52,841 nucleotides of DNA from Thermoplasmata archaeon (GTDB taxonomy: Archaea > Thermoplasmatota > Thermoplasmata > Thermoplasmatales > Thermoplasmataceae), in assembly GCA_021797555.1 (NCBI GenBank), contig JAJZZM010000009.1:1-52841 (forward strand). Direction: 5' to 3'. Below, piece by piece: positions 5,907 to 34,141 of the stretch; within the stretch, counting starts at the first letter, position 1, and each line of letters starts with the position of its first letter. The position numbers and the translations under genes are program-made. The notes under the pieces are model-generated. The model was not told the origin of the DNA. It saw nothing but the letters and a program-made list of their open reading frames with translations, and ran no database searches.

Positions 5907-6039
5907 TAATATGATATTACAGTAAAGATATTTAACTGTTTTTAATAAAATAGTTTTATATCATATACAATATAAAAAAGAAAATTTAATATAAATTAAT
6001 AAATACATTATATTATAAATAATTTTTTGCTCTGAGTTA

Positions 6040-6717
6040 ATTTCCGGCCATCTAAAAATAACATAAAAATGTGGAAAAACTGGGATGAAAAAGGTATAGA
6101 AGGTTATATAAACAAAGTCAAAAATCTGGGCATAAATTTTTTGCGTGTTTTTATATTGGATGAGGATTTTATAGATGTATATGGTAACGGTCTGAATTGC
6201 GTAAGGAGGCTTTATTGCTTGAATATGCATTTTATAACACGGTTAAATCTATAGACAATAAACATATTGCATCATCCGGTGATATTATGTCATATCTCCA
6301 GGAACCGGTAAATATTAACGGATATTCGGATTATTCTGGGCTTCATATTTATACATATGATAATGATATAATAAAGCATAGGTATTTATATGGTTCTCTT
6401 TTAAATATTTACATCAATAATAATGATATAAAAATTATGCTGGAGGAATTTGGATTCAGCAGTGACCAGTTTTATGAGGAAAGCATATCAAGATTTACAT
6501 GGCACGTGCAAATGGAGCCATTGGGGCCTTTGAATAGTGCTTTTCTGATTTTAAAAATAAGAATAACCCACCATACGATTGGCGCCCTTTGGAGTTGCAT
6601 TTTGGATTAATTGATGATAAGAGCGATGCAAAATTAACAGGAAAATATTTTAAAAAGTTTTCAGATGAATTGGATATTAATGATAAAATAATTTATAATT
6701 TTAATAATATATTATAA
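6040..6717 (+). pseudogene. Decayed GH5-type glycoside hydrolase (mannanase-like)
   Basis: Pieces of one protein appear in three reading frames. First frame: NFRPSKNNIKMWKNWDEKGI and KNLGINFLRVFILDEDF, typical of the N-terminal half of GH5 beta-mannanase-like enzymes. Second frame, from about 6200: SIDNKHIASSGDI and KIMLEEFGFSS, where the E in E-E-F-G fits the GH5 nucleophile. Third frame, from about 6498: MARANGAIGAFE, then a TAG at 6535-6537 where family members have Trp, then CFSDFKNKNNPPYDWRPLEL to a TAA at 6715-6717. The middle that should hold the acid/base N-E-P motif is missing. Internal deletion, two frame changes and a nonsense codon make this a clear pseudogene. It is flanked by moaA and an MFS gene. 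Confidence 0.75.
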
Positions 6718-6768
6718 TAATATTATATAAATAAAAAAAGGCAACTATAAATAATAGATAATAATAAA

Positions 6769-7968
6769 GTGTATTTATTCAGGCATTATATTATGATAAA
6801 ATCATATTTTTCTGATCCGGTTTTATATTATATGTCATATGGTTTATTTTCATTCTCAAATGGCCTTTTTAATATTTTTGTTAATATAATGTTTTTTTCA
6901 GATCATAACATAATAAATGTAATAGAATTCCAGATTTCAATGCAATTTACACAGTTATTATTATTTATAATAAGTACATACTTTATTAAATATATAAGTG
7001 CAAAATTTTTATATTCTTCAGGGGCAATACTGCGTTCACTGGTAATTGCAAGCCTGTTTCTAAATAATTTTTTATCCAGCAATGCAATTCTTTTTGGTTT
7101 TTTATACGGCATACCCTCGGGAATATTCTGGGCGGGCAATGCAACGTTCACTCTGCAAATATCCAGAAAAACAAAAAGATTTAAATTTTTATCTGTAAAC
7201 TCTGCATTATCAGGAATAACATCACTTATTGCGCCACTTGCCGGAGGTTTTTTGATTGCATACTCATCATATGCCGGCATATACAAATATTTTAATGATT
7301 TTATATTATCATCCATTTTATTAATTTTTACGGGCATTTCAGCATTATTTATAAATTCAAGCGGCGAGAAAGGAGGCATATTCAAAATATCTGAAACAGA
7401 AATAAGTGAAAATAATTACAATGTTTTCAGATTATTTTTCTTTTCATCCTATATAATGAGTATAATAATGTCCACTGTATTGCCAGTTTATATATTTCTT
7501 ATCTCAAACAGTTATATAATTGCAGGTTTATATGGAACAATTATAGCAGTAACATCATTAATATCTAATTCTATGGCACCTTTTCTTTATTACAGAATAA
7601 AAAAATTTGTACTAATAGCATTTTCAGTAATTATATTTGCATCATTTACATTTATTTTTAAGAATATAGATAATATTTTTATTATTTTTATTGCATCTTC
7701 TTCAATAATGTTTTTTTTAACGCCACTTTCTAACCTTGGCATGACAGAATTTATGCATTACCTTGACCAGTTTAATGTAACAAGGCAATACTGGATTAAC
7801 CGGGAATACTATATTGTTGCAGGAAGGCTCATTTCTCTTTCATCACTTATATTCATAGCAGATATTTATTCTGTATATGAAACTGTTTTGTTGATACCGA
7901 TATTTTCCATCTCCATTTTAGGATTTATACCGGTACTGAAAAAACTAAGAAAGGATAATTATACATGA
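6769..7968 (+). CDS. Major facilitator superfamily transporter, substrate unknown
   Basis: This protein of up to 399 residues has about 12 hydrophobic segments. The block FLYGIPSGIFWAGNATFTLQ and the loop SRKTKRFKF are MFS-like. The start is uncertain: a GTG at 6769 lies about 25 bases after CTATAAATAAT, which suits a leaderless transcript, but an ATG at 6793 (MIKSYFSDPVLYY) is also plausible. No substrate motif was recognised. It lies just downstream of the GH5 remnant, so a former sugar-use locus is possible but unproven. Confidence 0.75.
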   Translation: MYLFRHYIMIKSYFSDPVLYYMSYGLFSFSNGLFNIFVNIMFFSDHNIINVIEFQISMQFTQLLLFIISTYFIKYISAKFLYSSGAILRSLVIASLFLNNFLSSNAILFGFLYGIPSGIFWAGNATFTLQISRKTKRFKFLSVNSALSGITSLIAPLAGGFLIAYSSYAGIYKYFNDFILSSILLIFTGISALFINSSGEKGGIFKISETEISENNYNVFRLFFFSSYIMSIIMSTVLPVYIFLISNSYIIAGLYGTIIAVTSLISNSMAPFLYYRIKKFVLIAFSVIIFASFTFIFKNIDNIFIIFIASSSIMFFLTPLSNLGMTEFMHYLDQFNVTRQYWINREYYIVAGRLISLSSLIFIADIYSVYETVLLIPIFSISILGFIPVLKKLRKDNYT

Positions 7969-8112
7969 AATTATAAATTCAAAATATTAATAAATAATGC
8001 TGTATTTAACTTTTATGTATAAATTTCCTGAAAAATTTGAATTTGGCTGGTCCCAGGCGGGCTTTCATATTGTATATATGTTTATTCCCTGGAATTAAGC
8101 TACACAGTAAAT

Positions 8113-8150
8113 CCAGTGGCTTTCTTTCCAGTATATTGATTTGTAAACAA
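8113..8150. repeat. Intergenic 37-bp element, copy 1
   Basis: This copy reads CCAGTGGCTTTCTTTCCAGT followed by ATATTGATTTGTAAAC. It shares TATTGATTTGTAAA and the G-G-x-T-T-T-x-T-T-T pattern with copies at 18864-18900 and 23324-23360. It ends 36 bases before the start of the CBS gene, just before that gene's TATA box (TTTATATATAAAT). Read on the reverse strand, it begins a 47-codon open stretch starting LQINILERKPLDLLCSLIPG, which suggests a decayed coding tail such as a transposase end. Confidence 0.6.
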
Positions 8151-10502: not shown

Positions 10503-10625
10503 ATATTATTTAATATAATTATATTATAATAATTTTAATATTATGATATATAAAAATTAGATTTTAAAAACTGTTTAGTTTTAATATAAACAAAATCTTT
10601 AAGCTATTTTTTTAATAATCATATT

Positions 10626-11708
10626 ATGCATGATAAAAATTTTGAATATTATAGAAAGGTTAGGAATAATGGCGGCATAGTATATAACAATGACAACCAA
10701 TGCTGGGAGATATACAGTTATGAAGCATGCAAATATGCACTGATGCATGATTATATATTCTCATCAAATCCTGAATACGCCGGTGGGAATGGCGGCCTCA
10801 GCTTCATAAATATGGACAACCCGGAACATAAGGAATACAGGAATATAACAGCACCGTATTTTATGGCAACAAAAATTAACAATATGGAATCAAATATAGC
10901 TGATATATCAAATAAACTTATTAACAATTTAAATGCTAATTCAGACATTGTTAAAGACTATGCAGTGAAACTGCCTGTCAGTGTTATATCGGAATTACTG
11001 GGCATTCCTGAAACTGAGAGGTCAAAATTCAAGGAATGGTCTGATTACATAATAGGCAATAAAAGGGATAAAAATTTTGATAATGTTAATAATTACATGG
11101 TTAATAAATTGTCAGAGCTATTTGCTGGAAATTATAGCAATGGTATTATATCGGTAATAAATAGTGGGTCTGTAAATAATAAAAATCTTGATATAAGGGA
11201 AAAAATAGGATACATAATGCTATTAATAATAGGAGGCAATGAAACCACAACAAATTTAATAACTAATATGCTAAAGGTTTTATCAGATAATAATGATATT
11301 ATGAAAAATTTAAATAATGATAGGGATTTACATAGTTTTATAGAGGAAACATTAAGGTATTATTCACCCATCCAGTTCCTGCCACATAGATTTATTAAAG
11401 AGGATACAGAAATAAATGGCGTAAAAATGAATAAAGGGGAAAGACTATCATTATTCCTTGGTTCTGCCAACAGGGATGAAGATATGTTTGATAACGCAGA
11501 TAAATTTATTTTAAGGGATAAAAATGAACATATTGCATTTGGAAGAGGGTCGCATATGTGCATAGGCGCCCCTTTAGCAAGGTTAGAAGCTAACATTGCA
11601 TTAAATGATTTCCTGGAAAATTATAAAAAGATAAAAATAGATAATAAAAAATCGATGCTTTTAGAAAATCCAATGGTTTATGGTTACCAGAAAATGTTTT
11701 TTGAATAA
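10626..11708 (+). CDS. Cytochrome P450 (CYP231A-like)
   Basis: This 360-residue soluble P450 carries the heme-binding motif FGRGSHMCIGAPLARLE with the thiolate ligand at Cys312, the I-helix IIGGNETTTN oxygen-activation block, and the K-helix E-E-T-L-R-Y (E-x-x-R). It is shorter than most P450s, as in the thermophilic archaeal enzymes, and resembles CYP231A2 of Picrophilus torridus from memory. It has no membrane anchor. The substrate is unknown, and no ferredoxin or reductase gene lies next to it. A TATA-like TATTTTTTTAATAAT sits about 25 bases before the ATG, suggesting a monocistronic leaderless transcript. Confidence 0.93.
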   Translation: MHDKNFEYYRKVRNNGGIVYNNDNQCWEIYSYEACKYALMHDYIFSSNPEYAGGNGGLSFINMDNPEHKEYRNITAPYFMATKINNMESNIADISNKLINNLNANSDIVKDYAVKLPVSVISELLGIPETERSKFKEWSDYIIGNKRDKNFDNVNNYMVNKLSELFAGNYSNGIISVINSGSVNNKNLDIREKIGYIMLLIIGGNETTTNLITNMLKVLSDNNDIMKNLNNDRDLHSFIEETLRYYSPIQFLPHRFIKEDTEINGVKMNKGERLSLFLGSANRDEDMFDNADKFILRDKNEHIAFGRGSHMCIGAPLARLEANIALNDFLENYKKIKIDNKKSMLLENPMVYGYQKMFFE

Positions 11709-12106
11709 TTAATAATATATATTTAGTTTAAGTTTTATGAAAGGCCTGATTGAATACCAGTTAATAGCCATTCCCACAGAGATGCACGTCCTATAATTCC
11801 ATTATCATGGTTTATTATAGATTTATAAGCCCATGTTAATTTCAAATCATATTTCAAACCCTTATAGATGGACTAAATATATATCAATAATTACATGATA
11901 TAATTTTTTTATGATTTTTCATATTTTTGCTGATTATAAAAATATAATTATAACATAATTAAGATTATATCCCGTGTTTTATAGGATAATACTACGATAA
12001 AGGAATTTAATAAATAAAAGAAAAATAACTGGATAACCTAATAACAGATATTAACATTTTATTACCTAATGCCTGTCTAATAATCCGCAATTTATAAATT
12101 TATTTT
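11709..12106. other. Noncoding gap with one protein-like remnant
   Basis: There is no complete gene in these 398 bases. On the reverse strand 11872-11735 stays open for 45 codons without a start codon, is preceded by TAG, and reads KYDLKLTWAYKSIINHDNG and later GRASLWEWLLTGIQSGLS before TAA. The tryptophan-rich content looks like the tail of a lost gene, but I do not recognise the family. The rest is AT-rich. Confidence 0.3.
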
Positions 12107-13024
12107 TCATAGTTCAGGCATTGACATTGTAACAACAAAGTTTGGCACATCTACAATTTCAGATATCTTTAAATTGCCTATGATGCTGCATAATATATAT
12201 GCCTCGTCCTTTTTGAATCCTTTATTTTCTAAATATTTTATCATTTCCTTTACTGCTGTTTTCGCAGCTTCATATATATTGTTATTTATTCCCATTGTGT
12301 TTACAAATCTCCCTGAAATGTTCTCATTTTCATAGCTTATTATTCTTGGATAATCTGTCCTTAAATTTTTTATAACTTCTACTGTAATTTCTGCATCACA
12401 TGATGTTTCCACTGCAGTTCCGGTTACCTCACCATCTCCCTGGAGTGCATGGGGATCTGCAAATGATACTAAAGCTCCTGAAGCATTTACCGGCAAATAC
12501 AGTACAGAACCTTTCTTTAAATGTTTATTATCCATATTGCCGCCAAACCTCTGTGGCGGTATCATCGGGAATTCACCGGATTCAGGTGCAGTGCCTATTA
12601 TGCCTAAAAATGGCTTAACATCAAATGACATATTTTCCAAGAAATTTTTTCTTTTGCTTTTTATTTTATTGTTTTTTATTTCCCATATTATTAATTCATC
12701 AGAAAATTCATCAGCTAAAAGCCCGAAATTATGCAGCGTCTGTGACCATCCAAAACTGCCTGTATCTATATTATTTATGGTTATTTTCAATGTATCCCCA
12801 TGTTCAGCATTATTTACATAAAATGGCCCGACTGCAGCATCCAACATTGAAACATCTATATTTTTTGCATCTTCATCGTTAAAATCCTCTTTTATCTGGT
12901 CTGTTGAAGAATCAGGGATCTTTATTTTAAAGGTTTCATTGCTTTCTATGTATTCTATGGGCTTTAAATTTTTATTCCATTTAAAATGTATATTTTCTTT
13001 TTTATGCCCGTCTATAACTTTCAT
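12107..13024 (-). CDS. Acetamidase/formamidase family protein
   Basis: This 305-residue protein matches the FmdA/AmdA amidase family. Key blocks are VGPFYVNNAEHGDTLKITI, PHALQGDGEVTGTAVETSCD (the D-x-H-x-x-x-G-D-G-E metal-site block) and FLGIIGTAPESGEF. Family enzymes hydrolyse acetamide or formamide to ammonia and the acid. The gene stands alone and is divergent from the S9 peptidase gene; the 83 bases between the starts are AT-rich and should hold both promoters. Confidence 0.88.
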   Translation of the reverse strand: MKVIDGHKKENIHFKWNKNLKPIEYIESNETFKIKIPDSSTDQIKEDFNDEDAKNIDVSMLDAAVGPFYVNNAEHGDTLKITINNIDTGSFGWSQTLHNFGLLADEFSDELIIWEIKNNKIKSKRKNFLENMSFDVKPFLGIIGTAPESGEFPMIPPQRFGGNMDNKHLKKGSVLYLPVNASGALVSFADPHALQGDGEVTGTAVETSCDAEITVEVIKNLRTDYPRIISYENENISGRFVNTMGINNNIYEAAKTAVKEMIKYLENKGFKKDEAYILCSIIGNLKISEIVDVPNFVVTMSMPEL

Positions 13025-13107
13025 TCTGCATAATTAAAAAATAAAATATAATTTTTTGCAATATAATTTATAATTAAAATTTTAATATTAAAATAGAATA
13101 AGCGATA

Positions 13108-14865
13108 ATGAATAGTAATGAAGCCTATAATGTGAGATATGCAAATGAGATAGTTTCATCTGATGATTCAGTGTTTTTTTCAGTAAAATATATCAAGAAT
13201 AATGAATATCATTCTTTAATTTACAGAATAAAGGATAAAAAAATGCTTCAGTTGACGCATAATGAAAATGAAAGGTCGCCCAAGTATATAAACAATAAAT
13301 TATATTATATAAAATATTCAAAGGAAAATGAATCATTAATGGCCTTAAATGAATTATCAGAACCTGAAACCATAGCAACATTCTATAAAATAAAAGATTA
13401 TCAAATTTATAATGATAATATATTTGTTATTGCCTCTGAAAACTCCGATAATACAGAGCCATTTGAGGCAAATCAAATAAAATACAGATTCAATGGAAGG
13501 GGATTAATAAGATCAAGATATTCACTGTATAAAATTAATAATAAAGTAGAAAAGATATATTCAGGAAATTTTGATGTTAATGGAATAGGAATAAATAAAA
13601 GGATTATAATAGAAACAACAGAAAATAATGATGATTATGGCCTGGCAGATTTATATGAAATTGATTTAAATGGCTAGGTAATAAAAAAAATTACCAATAA
13701 TTCATACCATATAAATGGCTTTACAGTATCCGATAATGGAAAAATTGTTTTTTCAGGCCATGAAAATAATACGCCATGGGCACTCAACAAAATAATATAT
13801 CCGGAAGAAAATAAGGAAATTTTAATAGGAAATGATTCAAACAGGTCAATAATATCGGATTCATTCTCATCGGCAAGTTATAAAATGAAGTTTTATGGCA
13901 ATAATTTATATGCAATGGGGCAGAAAAAATCCTCATCATATGTATATAAAATAGATGAAAATTATAAAATAGAAAAATTAACAGATGATCATCAGGATAT
14001 AATAGATTTTGACATTGATAAAAATTTAAGCTATGTATATTCAACAATGAAGTGCCCGTCAGTAATAAAATATGGTGATTCATATAATATAAATGAAAAT
14101 ATAAAAGGTATAAGGGCAGATACAATTGATATTGATGGCGGAGAAGCCTTTATTATGTTTAAATCAAAGGATTCACCATCAATACTGTTTATACATGGCG
14201 GCCCGCAGGCGGCTTATGGCAATTCATATGTTATTGAATTCAATTATTTCTATAATAATGGCTATAACATATTATTCTCAAATCCTCCTGGAAGCACAGG
14301 CTATGGCGAAGATTATGAAAAAGCATGTGTTGGCAACTGGGGAGGGGCTGATTTAGATTTTATAAAAAAATTCATAAAAATAGCCAAGGAAAAATATGGA
14401 ATAAATGATAATATTGGTTTAACAGGTGGTTCATATGGTGGCTTTATGACAAACTGGATTGTTTCACATGAAAATATGTTTAAGGCGGCGATTTCAGAAA
14501 GATCCATATCAAATTTATTCAGCATGGTGGGCACCAGTGATATAGGCTTCTGGTTCAATACAATGCAACTAAATATAGATGATCCATATAAAAAGGAATC
14601 TATGGACAAATTAATGAAATTTTCTCCTATAAGCTATGTTAAAAATGTAAAAACTCCCACATTACTGATAACTGGTGAGGAGGATTACAGATGCCCGATA
14701 GAGCAGGCTGAACAGTTTTTTGTTGCACTGAAATTAAACAATGTTGATACCGGATTAATAAGGTATATAGGGGATAACCATGAACACGCAAGGGCAGGCA
14801 TACCAAAAAATATGATGGATAGATTGAATAGAAAATTAAAATGGTTTGACAGATATTTAAAATAA
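13108..14865 (+). pseudogene. S9 family (acylaminoacyl-) peptidase interrupted by one in-frame TAG
   Basis: One frame runs for 586 codons from ATG at 13108 to TAA at 14863-14865, with a single TAG at 13675-13677 (codon 190). The N-terminal part is a beta-propeller-like region. The C-terminal part is an intact alpha/beta hydrolase: nucleophile GGSYGGFMTNW, acid in TPTLLITGEEDYRCP, histidine in GDNHEHARAG, and oxyanion-type HGGPQAAYGNS. The enzyme would cleave short or acylated peptides in the cytoplasm, downstream of tricorn. No other lesion is visible and codon use is even on both sides of the TAG. It may be a recent nonsense mutation, a strain difference, a sequencing error, or readthrough. 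The 3' part could also start at the ATG at 13885. Confidence 0.85.
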
Positions 14866-14867
14866 AT

Positions 14868-16091
14868 TTAATTTTTCTGCGCCACTGCAGATTTTTTAAT
14901 TGCCCTGTTATCCCTTACATTAAACAATACTGAGGCCATTAATAGCAGTATCATTGGTATTGCAGTTATATAAATAGCCATTCTTATATTGTATAATGTT
15001 GATATTAAGCCGAATGCAAAAGGTATCATAAATGCTATTATATCCATTATAAGTACAAATACGGAATAAACAACATTAAGGTCCTCTATATCAACACTGG
15101 ATGCGATATAATAACTTGCCGTTGGATATATTGCACCGTGTGGGAATCCGAGTATTAACAGTGCACCTATAAACATTACTATTCCTGCATCTATGCCAAG
15201 CAATAAATAACCAATAATTGTTGCAGCAAATGATGCATACATTAAAACTTCGTGGTTTTTTACACTTTTAAATGACAATATTAACCTTGCAGTGAATGAA
15301 ACGCCATAGAATAATGCAAGGAGATAGAAGAATATATCCGGGTTTATACCATTATATTCCTTTCCCATTATTGAACCATATGTTATTAATAAAATAAATG
15401 GAAATGCATATGCTATATTTCCGAATAATGCAAATAAAACCTTTCCCTGTTTTAATGAATATGATGCTTTTTTTATTATTTCCTTAAATGTTAGTCTATC
15501 TCTTTTCTTTAAATTCATTTTTATTTTTGTTGACAGTGAGAACATTAATACTGTTGATGCCAATGATATGAATAAGAATATTAAAAATGCATATCTTATA
15601 TTTATGGAAGATACTATCAGGCCCTCCATAATAACTCCAAATATTAAGCTCAGCGACAATGATGCCGTATATGCTGCTATATACTTATCCCTTTTATCTT
15701 TGGGCGCTATAACATTTGTTACGGTCATTAATAATGGCTGCACAACCCCCATTGACAATCCTGTCACTGTCGATAGAATTAGAACCTCATAAATATTGTT
15801 TGATAATACATAAAAGAATATGCCCACAGTCATTACCAAAAGGAAAAACGCTATAACCCTGGGTGTTTTTTCTATATTTATCCTTCCGTTGATTAAAACG
15901 TTTGAAATCATCGCACCTATGCCATATAAGGTTGCTGTTAATCCCACAAATAAAACATCTGCATCTATAACATATTTTGTAAATACTGGAACAACGGTCA
16001 TAAGCATATTTGTTGATGCCCGCATTGTAAATGTAACCGATAAAAGCATTATTAAATTTATTAAAAGTAGTTTACCATTTGTATTATTCAT
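14868..16091 (-). CDS. MFS transporter, 12 membrane segments
   Basis: This 407-residue protein has about 12 hydrophobic helices and MFS features such as the loop NVLINGRINIEKTPR after the second helix. I choose the ATG at 16091 (MNNTNGKLLLINL) over an upstream ATG at 16148. The first hydrophobic helix follows directly, and a TATA box (TTATATATTATT on the reverse strand) lies about 25-30 bases before it, as for leaderless genes here. The substrate is not evident. Its stop codon is 2 bases from that of the peptidase gene, with which it converges. Confidence 0.82.
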   Translation of the reverse strand: MNNTNGKLLLINLIMLLSVTFTMRASTNMLMTVVPVFTKYVIDADVLFVGLTATLYGIGAMISNVLINGRINIEKTPRVIAFFLLVMTVGIFFYVLSNNIYEVLILSTVTGLSMGVVQPLLMTVTNVIAPKDKRDKYIAAYTASLSLSLIFGVIMEGLIVSSINIRYAFLIFLFISLASTVLMFSLSTKIKMNLKKRDRLTFKEIIKKASYSLKQGKVLFALFGNIAYAFPFILLITYGSIMGKEYNGINPDIFFYLLALFYGVSFTARLILSFKSVKNHEVLMYASFAATIIGYLLLGIDAGIVMFIGALLILGFPHGAIYPTASYYIASSVDIEDLNVVYSVFVLIMDIIAFMIPFAFGLISTLYNIRMAIYITAIPMILLLMASVLFNVRDNRAIKKSAVAQKN

Positions 16092-16534
16092 TAGTAAAGT
16101 AATTGCACAATAATATATAATCTTTTCAAAGGTTATTAAATCAAGCAATTTTAATGTATTATCAATAATTTTTAAAATTATATTATATGATTTATATATA
16201 ATTGTTCCTGTAAATATAAAAATTCAAAAATCATTATGTGATAAAATAAAAATATTAGAGATTATTAATTAATACTGATTTGTCGAATTTATTGAGAAAT
16301 AGCAAATTCCCTCCAATATAATTTATTATATTATAATAGTTATTATCTTTCTGATTTGTAAAATATATTTGGTATTACTTATTAACTTCATTACTCTAGG
16401 ATACTGTATTTATCAGCGCATCCTTGTAATCCTTAACTACCTAAGCAAATCCAGCCAAAGCACCTCATTACCATTGTTTTTTATATATAATAATATTGAA
16501 TATTAATAATATAATTTTTATATTTAATATAGCA
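16092..16534. other. Noncoding gap, about 440 bases
   Basis: The region holds the promoter of the MFS gene near 16100-16135 and is otherwise AT-rich. Around 16380-16470 base composition is less AT-rich and the reverse strand contains short coding-like stretches such as VVKDYKDALINTVS, broken by stops, so an old gene remnant is possible. CTGATTTGTAAA at 16351-16362 shares only its end with the 37-bp repeat. No RNA gene was recognised. Confidence 0.3.
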
Positions 16535-17410
16535 TTATTTTTTTATATCATGCCAGCCGCCCCTGCTGTTCATCTTAATATTTTTATTTCCAGTATATCC
16601 GGAATAAACCATCTCCTTTAATAAATATGATGGCATTAAATTTTCATCCCCCGTTTCTGAGTATAAATAATCGCCAATGTCTTTTATTGTATCCAGTCCG
16701 ATTGTATCCATAAGTTCAAAAGGCCCCATAGGAAATCCAAAACCGAGTTTTGCCATTTTATCTATATCCTCCATTGATGCTATTCCCTTCTCGTATAATT
16801 TTAATGACACATTAATCCATGACTGCACAAAATTTGTTGTAAAGAATCCCGGATAATCTTTAACTACTGCAGGTTCTTTTCCCAATTTTTTTGATAATTC
16901 GATTACTGAATTTAATGTTTCATCGGATGTAAAGGTTGTCCTTACAACTTCTATTAATCTCATAATGGGAGCAGGATTAAACCAGTGCATTCCAATTACC
17001 CTTGATTTATTTTTTACATTTCTTGATATTTCGGAAATCATTATTCCGGATGTATTGCTTGCAATTATTGCACTGTCATTGACATTTTTTTCAATATTTT
17101 CAAATACCTTCATCTTTAAATTTAATATTTCAGGAACCGCCTCTATTACCAAATCACAGTTATTTAATGAAGAATAATCCGTGGACGTTTTTAAATTTTT
17201 CATAAAATTGTTCTTCTGTTCCTCTGTTATAATATTCTTCTTAACCAGGTTAATAAATCCATATTTCCCGGAATCTATGCTTTTTACAGCATTTTTTAAT
17301 ATATCATCATTGATATCTATTATTGTTGTTTTATAATTATTTCTCATAAAAACCTGTGCTATTCCCTGCCCCATTACACCGGATCCAATTATCCCTACTT
17401 TATTTATCAT
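16535..17410 (-). CDS. 3-hydroxybutyryl-CoA / 3-hydroxyacyl-CoA dehydrogenase
   Basis: This 291-residue protein starts with a Rossmann NAD site, VGIIGSGVMGQGIAQVF, and has SNTSGIMISEI, the catalytic histidine in GMHWFNPAPIMRLIEVV, and FGFPMGPFELMD in the C-terminal dimerisation domain. It oxidises 3-hydroxyacyl-CoA with NAD and is usual in length for the short (PaaH/Hbd) form without a hydratase. It is divergent from the FMN oxidase gene. A paralogue lies at 29443-30390; ETF genes in the same window fit a fatty or branched acid oxidation role, which is inference. Confidence 0.9.
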   Translation of the reverse strand: MINKVGIIGSGVMGQGIAQVFMRNNYKTTIIDINDDILKNAVKSIDSGKYGFINLVKKNIITEEQKNNFMKNLKTSTDYSSLNNCDLVIEAVPEILNLKMKVFENIEKNVNDSAIIASNTSGIMISEISRNVKNKSRVIGMHWFNPAPIMRLIEVVRTTFTSDETLNSVIELSKKLGKEPAVVKDYPGFFTTNFVQSWINVSLKLYEKGIASMEDIDKMAKLGFGFPMGPFELMDTIGLDTIKDIGDYLYSETGDENLMPSYLLKEMVYSGYTGNKNIKMNSRGGWHDIKK

Positions 17411-32860: not shown

Positions 32861-34141
32861 TTATCTTGAATGCTTCACAAAGAGAACAAGTATGCCTGCA
32901 ATAAGAACAAATATGGCCATGGAATAAACACCATCTACAAATGAATGTGTGTAGCTTTCAAGTCCACCAACCAGTATCGGGCCTACTATGCCTCCAAGGT
33001 TTCCAAGGCCATTTATCATTCCTATGGATGCTGCCGAACTCTCCCTTGTTAATGATTCCTGTGGTATATTCCAGAATATAGGCAAAAATGAAAATATTCC
33101 TATTGCTGAAATTGTAAAGAATATAAATGAAACCACAGCGTTGGATATCAGAAATGCGCTTAATGCAAGTCCAGCAAAAGCAACAAAGAATATTATTGCA
33201 GTTAATACTTTTCTGTTTCCCTTTTTATCAGAATATCTTAATATGAATATTAACGCTATGGCTGCTACAATATATGGAATATCACTTAAAAAACTTGATG
33301 TTGCAGCATTAACATGTGCAAATGAACTTATTATTGTTGGTAGCCATATAGTATAACCATATAGCCCGGTAACTCCAAGTAAATAAACTATGGTTAATAT
33401 TAATACATCAGGTTCCTGTAATGCCTTTTTCCAGCCCATTTTTAATGGTTTTTCATTTTCTTCGCTATCCAGTGCTTCCTGTAATGAGTCTTTTTCTTTT
33501 TTTGTTAACCATTTTGCATCTTCAGGGAAATCGGTTAAAACAACCCAGAGTATTACAACTGATATTAAAGCCAATATTCCCTCATATATAAATAAGTATC
33601 TCCATCCGGGATTGTTGCCATAAACAGTAAATATTTCTCCGGCTATTAAACCTCCAAATATACCGGCAACCGGTATTGCTGCATTAAAGAATGAGTTGGC
33701 AACCCCTCTTTCTGATTTAACAAACCATATGCCCATAAAGAACATTGTTCCTGCATAGAATGGTGCCTCAGCAAGGCCCAATACAAATCTCAATGCATAC
33801 ATTTCTGGGATATTCTGAACAAAGCCGGTAACGATTGTTATTACGCCCTATGATCCAAATGCAAGTGCAAATATTTTTCTTACACCAACATTATTTATTC
33901 TTAACGTTGTAAATACCTGCGGTATGGCATACGCAACAAAAAATAATGCCGAAGCTATTCCTGCTATAAGATCCGCATTCGCTGCAGAAGCACCTATATC
34001 CTTAAACATGCCCGCGTCTATACCATATGATAGATTAACTCTATCAAGAAAATTTACAACATAAAGAAAAAATAATATAGGCGCAAGTCTAATATATCTC
34101 TTCTTCAAGGACAACTTAACATTACTATTTATACTTTCCAT
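32861..34141 (-). pseudogene. MFS transporter (anion:cation symporter type) interrupted by one in-frame TAG
   Basis: A single reverse-strand frame runs for 427 codons from ATG at 34139-34141 to TAA at 32861-32863, with one TAG at 33848-33850 (codon 98). Before it: FFLYVVNFLDRVNLSYGIDA (TM1, ACS-family like) and GVRKIFALAFGS; after it: [21 protein letters not shown], where family members usually have Trp at the TAG position (TGG to TAG is one base). The later helices and the [12 protein letters not shown] loop are intact. No other lesion is visible. Substrates of the family are organic anions such as sugar acids. A short protein from the ATG at 33787 or a readthrough protein are both possible. 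Confidence 0.83.

Follow-up and report, generated by a model that had tools for sequence, protein, structure and literature searches.

An accessory S9 peptidase gene of a Ferroplasma species with a probable recent nonsense mutation

S9 peptidases of the acylaminoacyl-peptidase/S9C-like type, such as 7ep9, 8wt1, 5yzn and 4hxf, combine a beta-propeller with an alpha/beta-hydrolase. The frame described here shares both parts with them, but with readthrough it would give only 585 residues, fewer than they have, and it is interrupted at codon 190. Single stops of this kind have been described before. According to a passage of Belinky et al. 2021 (PMC7918605), in-frame stops are widespread in bacterial genes and short-lived, and the cases presented there likewise consist of a single in-frame stop in a constrained gene and are evolutionarily young. 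Those cases, however, come from bacteria and concern stops common to at least two species, whereas the present one comes from an archaeon and the stop occurs in one genome. Closer in taxonomy, a passage on the F. acidiphilum Y genome (PMC5473848) counts 19 CDS with pseudogene qualifiers. This is likewise low-level decay in the same genus, but it concerns a different species, and the passage gives no gene names. Our literature searches found no published report of a stop in this S9 gene.

The window, meaning the whole stretch of 52,841 nucleotides analysed, is the entire contig C15 of a source genome of 1,937,194 bases (24 contigs, 99.56% complete), designated G000. On its forward strand, a frame beginning with ATG at 13108 and ending with TAA at 14863-14865 contains no frameshift and a sole inner stop, the TAG at 13675-13677 (codon 190). 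The 5' part (13108-13677, +; 189 codons plus TAG) encodes the first half of the propeller; the 3' part (13678-14865, +, with the terminal TAA) encodes what is left of the propeller together with the alpha/beta-hydrolase domain (PF00326). As ORFs, the frame yields one of 189 aa and one of 326 aa (13885-14865, +), a possible restart product that begins at the first ATG past the TAG. That ATG lies 207 bases (69 codons) downstream, with no in-frame ATG, GTG or TTG in between, and no Shine-Dalgarno-like stretch was seen by eye upstream of 13885. Ser442 in the motif GGSYGG (codon 14431-14433, +), Asp526 (14683-14685, +) and His558 (14779-14781, +), which we take to be the nucleophile and the other members of the catalytic triad of an S9 peptidase, occur in that order, all 3' of the TAG, and are invariant in 13 of 13 homologues compared. 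The stretch from the TAG to 13885 also retains its three of three invariant residues. A preliminary description of this DNA had reported a frame open but for the TAG at codon 190, with the catalytic Ser, Asp and His all behind it; coordinates, translation and the three residues named here agree with that account. Loss of the promoter was considered and rejected, as the upstream region that the frame has in common with a divergent amidase gene (13025-13107, +) is largely conserved with sister species.

The part after the stop scores 144.7 bits against the Peptidase_S9 domain model (PF00326; curated cut-off 22.6), and its best PDB sequence match is the S9 peptidase 8wt1. With the TAG taken as a residue, an AlphaFold2 model of the frame has a mean pLDDT of 80.6 and a pTM of 0.82, and Foldseek finds it to resemble the four S9 peptidases named above, with TMq of 0.84-0.88 among the matches listed. 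Codon 190 falls in a turn between modelled strands 179-185 and 191-194. The region between the TAG and 13885, already thought to be propeller-like, is modelled as beta strands with uneven confidence (block means 41-92). Propeller and hydrolase occur in one chain only if the TAG is read through, because standard translation ends at residue 189. Judged by the model, a chain ending at the TAG comprises roughly one half of the propeller and lacks the catalytic domain, and this 189-residue product should have no peptidase activity.

Comparisons were made with the two nearest sister species (G007 and G002), three further members of the genus (G004, G005 and G008), a member of the same family (G016), and other genomes. 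In both sisters the orthologue is an intact, continuous S9 (acylaminoacyl-peptidase/S9C-like) peptidase of 587 aa. The two halves from G000 match one and the same sister protein, at 73-76% identity on each side of the stop (73-75% for the N-terminal part against the intact sister proteins), and therefore do not represent a chance juxtaposition of two ORFs. The alignment has no gap near the stop. Some match to the part after the stop occurs in 33 of 41 genomes searched, paralogues included. The part before the stop was found in five of ten genus genomes, G000 among them, and in the other four (G007, G002, G004 and G005) the frame is open for 589-605 codons. The residue at codon 190 in close homologues, a comparison that the preliminary description had proposed, is Lys in the two nearest sisters and Lys, Asn, Ile, Glu, Gly, His or Ser in other relatives. 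The site is thus variable, the stop is absent from the relatives, and the TAG is, as far as the genomes examined can tell, private to G000. A protein intron or insertion was considered and rejected, since no extra residues occur near codon 190 relative to the relatives.

In two other genomes the gene is decayed or broken. G008 retains only a scrap of the C-terminal part (L267, 2748-3005), with several stops and 63% identity to G005 over 41 residues, and the S9 copy of G016 (L268, 880-2657) has one frameshift near the catalytic Ser motif. From these remnants, the S9 gene appears to have been lost repeatedly. Absence or decay of the gene in other members of the genus marks it as dispensable, and a nonsense mutation would be an ordinary first step towards the loss of a dispensable gene. 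We consider it probable that the TAG arose recently as a nonsense mutation in an accessory S9 peptidase gene of one Ferroplasma species and marks an early step in gene loss. Translation would then end at codon 190 and leave a 189-residue half-propeller lacking the hydrolase domain. That the cell really carries this base, and makes no full-length protein, is our inference. Among the explanations offered in the preliminary description, a very recent nonsense mutation is the one best supported, a sequencing difference is its main rival, and a split gene and readthrough are both disfavoured. On the favoured account, the locus would show an acidophilic archaeon at the very start of losing a gene.

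G000 retains each of the 105 residues that do not vary among 13 homologues (105 of 105); when seven intact relatives were left out one at a time in a comparable test, they had lost 0 to 3 of 105-108 such residues. On a FastTree tree, the amino-acid branch length of G000 is 0.187, equal to that of G007 (0.166+0.022). Pairwise dN/dS is 0.14 and is similar on the two sides of the stop (0.15-0.16 before it, 0.13-0.14 after it), a value inside the 0.06-0.26 range of 12 other syntenic genes; dN is among the highest of that set. Changes assigned to lineages show no concentration on G000, numbering 24 there versus 16 in the sister (chi2 1.6), or 32 versus 40 by another assignment rule. A two-ratio codon test gave a dN/dS of 0.199 on the G000 branch versus 0.043 (2dlnL 10.5); it used eight of 15 sequences and an assumed tree that joins the outgroups differently from FastTree, and some outgroup branches reached the bound. 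Allowing the sister stem its own ratio removes the excess (0.095 versus 0.104), and the outgroup branches are saturated, so we do not trust the raised value. Branch lengths, codon models and lineage-assigned changes thus give no trusted sign of relaxed selection after the TAG. None is expected if the stop is very young, and the result therefore bounds the age of the stop and does not reject a recent pseudogene. In simulations of neutral decay, 3.75% of 400 runs stayed clean at 0.01 changes per site, with no extra stop and no invariant residue changed, and 0.25% did so at 0.02 per site; the synonymous distance to G007, by comparison, is about 1.0. If the gene is dead, it would have died within about the final few per cent of its independent history. 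The S9 gene was probably under normal purifying selection until very recently, which would place the stop on the time scale of within-species variation.

The window holds a similar second case, about which the preliminary description was silent. An MFS transporter gene on the minus strand (32861-34141) has an in-frame TAG at 33848-33850, where nine of nine genus orthologues have Trp. Close matches to this gene occur in all ten genus genomes, the orthologue is open in the other nine, and the G000 branch length equals that of the sister. In about 1 Mb of G000 sampled elsewhere, one more broken non-mobile gene was recognised, a sugar porter (L200, G000:C10:260001-280000; 15794-17170, +) with TAG at 16034 and TGA at 16400; transposase pieces in G000 are also broken, by TAG or TAA. 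The sister G007 has breaks as well, in a sugar porter piece with TAG (L219 at 15477, minus strand) and in a gene of 239 aa with a single TAA (L232 at 5565). Since the breaks involve TAG, TGA and TAA and occur in G007 too, breakage is special neither to TAG nor to G000.

These counts depend on two procedures. A codon scan over 1,052,841 bases of G000, which make up 54% of that genome and take in the window, gave 39 candidates; over 637,907 bases of G007 it gave 32, one of which (L261 at 7099) was left unsorted. Most of the candidates were judged by eye to be same-frame neighbouring genes, antisense pieces or mobile-element pieces, and reading through the stop followed by a Pfam search was applied to six scan candidates only. 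Stops close to gene ends escape the scan, which requires 40 open codons to either side. The second procedure, a comparison covering 852,841 bases of G000 and part of G007 and G002, yielded 96 places in G000 with three inner stops, one of them set aside, and 92 in G007 with one; the TAA of G007 was found by this comparison only and not by the codon scan. A comparative match with an inner TGA at L210 was taken, on visual inspection, for an upstream mis-start and discarded.

We count the second clean TAG, in the same 52.8 kb and in a genus-wide gene, as evidence against a recent nonsense allele. Two clean TAG cases within 53 kb form a cluster without explanation, one that would fit a contig with base-call errors. 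An error of base calling or assembly, with a sense codon at 13675 in the cell and the gene intact, would also account for an S9 gene free of any trace of decay and for a nonsense codon in a genus-core transporter. We nevertheless consider such an error unlikely. No frameshifts were noticed in window genes matched to the sisters, whose best matches cover 0.92-1.0 of the sister protein; the assembly is nearly complete in few contigs, and the sister assembly G007 has similar breaks. Moreover, as random errors would mostly be missense, two nonsense errors would mean that dozens of bases in these 53 kb are wrong.

Functional readthrough, in which a suppressor or near-cognate tRNA decodes TAG at some level and full-length peptidase (and transporter) results, seems to us more improbable than an error. 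Purifying selection as strong after the stop as before it is what readthrough would produce, and the occurrence of two genes that have a TAG and are otherwise clean, one of them genus-core, speaks for it as well. Pyrrolysine systems are alike in having in-frame TAG codons. In G000, however, the best match to PylS scores 29.6 bits, below the cut-off of 178.15 that one of 14 control genomes passed, and none of the 45 tRNAs found has a CUA anticodon. ARAGORN typed 43 of these tRNAs and two, intron-bearing tRNA-Met and tRNA-Tyr, were read by eye. The list is incomplete, which leaves some room for readthrough: tRNA-Phe and tRNA-Trp are missing from the 45 and neither was evident when the search was loosened to E 10, at which four more weak matches, outside the 45 typed, appeared. 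Perhaps the two missing tRNAs are intron-bearing or lie in gaps.

The use of TAG at gene ends also argues against readthrough. In the sample from G000, TAG is the terminator of 61 among 865 gene calls, and in G007 of 67 among 531. Among 223 orthologous gene ends, nine have TAG in both genomes, nine in G007 only and five in G000 only (totals of 14 in G000 versus 18 in G007); L091, a gene cut by a contig end, was excluded from these conservation counts. A further in-frame stop follows within five codons after 22 of 60 TAG terminators versus 234 of 603 TAA terminators, so there is no excess of backup stops after TAG. By these measures, TAG behaves as an ordinary terminator. Genome-wide reassignment of TAG, or TAG-only decoding as a rule across the organism, was rejected on this use of TAG and on the occurrence of TGA and TAA in other breaks, which also counts against readthrough at this locus. 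A six-pair stem immediately 3' of the TAG was considered as a recoding hairpin and rejected; the RNA structure is weak (z -1.64) and the stem is not kept in the sisters. Low-level UAG decoding without a pyrrolysine system, with the MFS transporter and the S9 peptidase both made full length at reduced level, is a shade more doubtful again. Were both clean TAGs translated, an archaeon that has no pyrrolysine genes would be decoding UAG.

Two observations on tRNA genes stand apart from the question of TAG. G000 has a tRNA-Leu with anticodon AAG, that is, with A at position 34 (L152, G000:C14:140840-141140), which is unusual for an archaeon. Two nearly identical tRNA-Ala(GGC) genes occur in tandem at L114 (1500-1573 and 1685-1756).

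Least probable of all is a split gene, in which the 189-aa product and a second polypeptide restarted at 13885 would combine to form a functional enzyme. In its favour, the sequence of both parts is retained, the 326-aa ATG-started ORF contains the whole hydrolase domain, and among the three segments dN/dS peaks in the 69-codon gap (0.24-0.28 versus 0.11-0.17), as expected for a gap that had ceased to be translated. Against it, the restart is distant, with no nearer start codon; none of the intact relatives examined has a split gene (in G016 the break is a frameshift elsewhere in the gene); the changes in the gap are not concentrated on the G000 lineage (six here and seven in the sister, with 11 ambiguous); and a difference as large as that of the gap is seen in 19% of all 69-codon windows. 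The last two results indicate that the gap was probably translated until recently, and without an excess of gap changes on the G000 lineage a long-standing split is disfavoured. If the stop is a recent nonsense allele, as we think probable, annotation should not record the two fragments as separate genes.

Two further segments distinguish the window from both sisters. Positions 5993-8149, which contain an MFS gene (6769-7968), are missing from the syntenic place in each sister genome, and the same is true of positions 10543-12112, which contain a cytochrome P450 gene (10626-11708).
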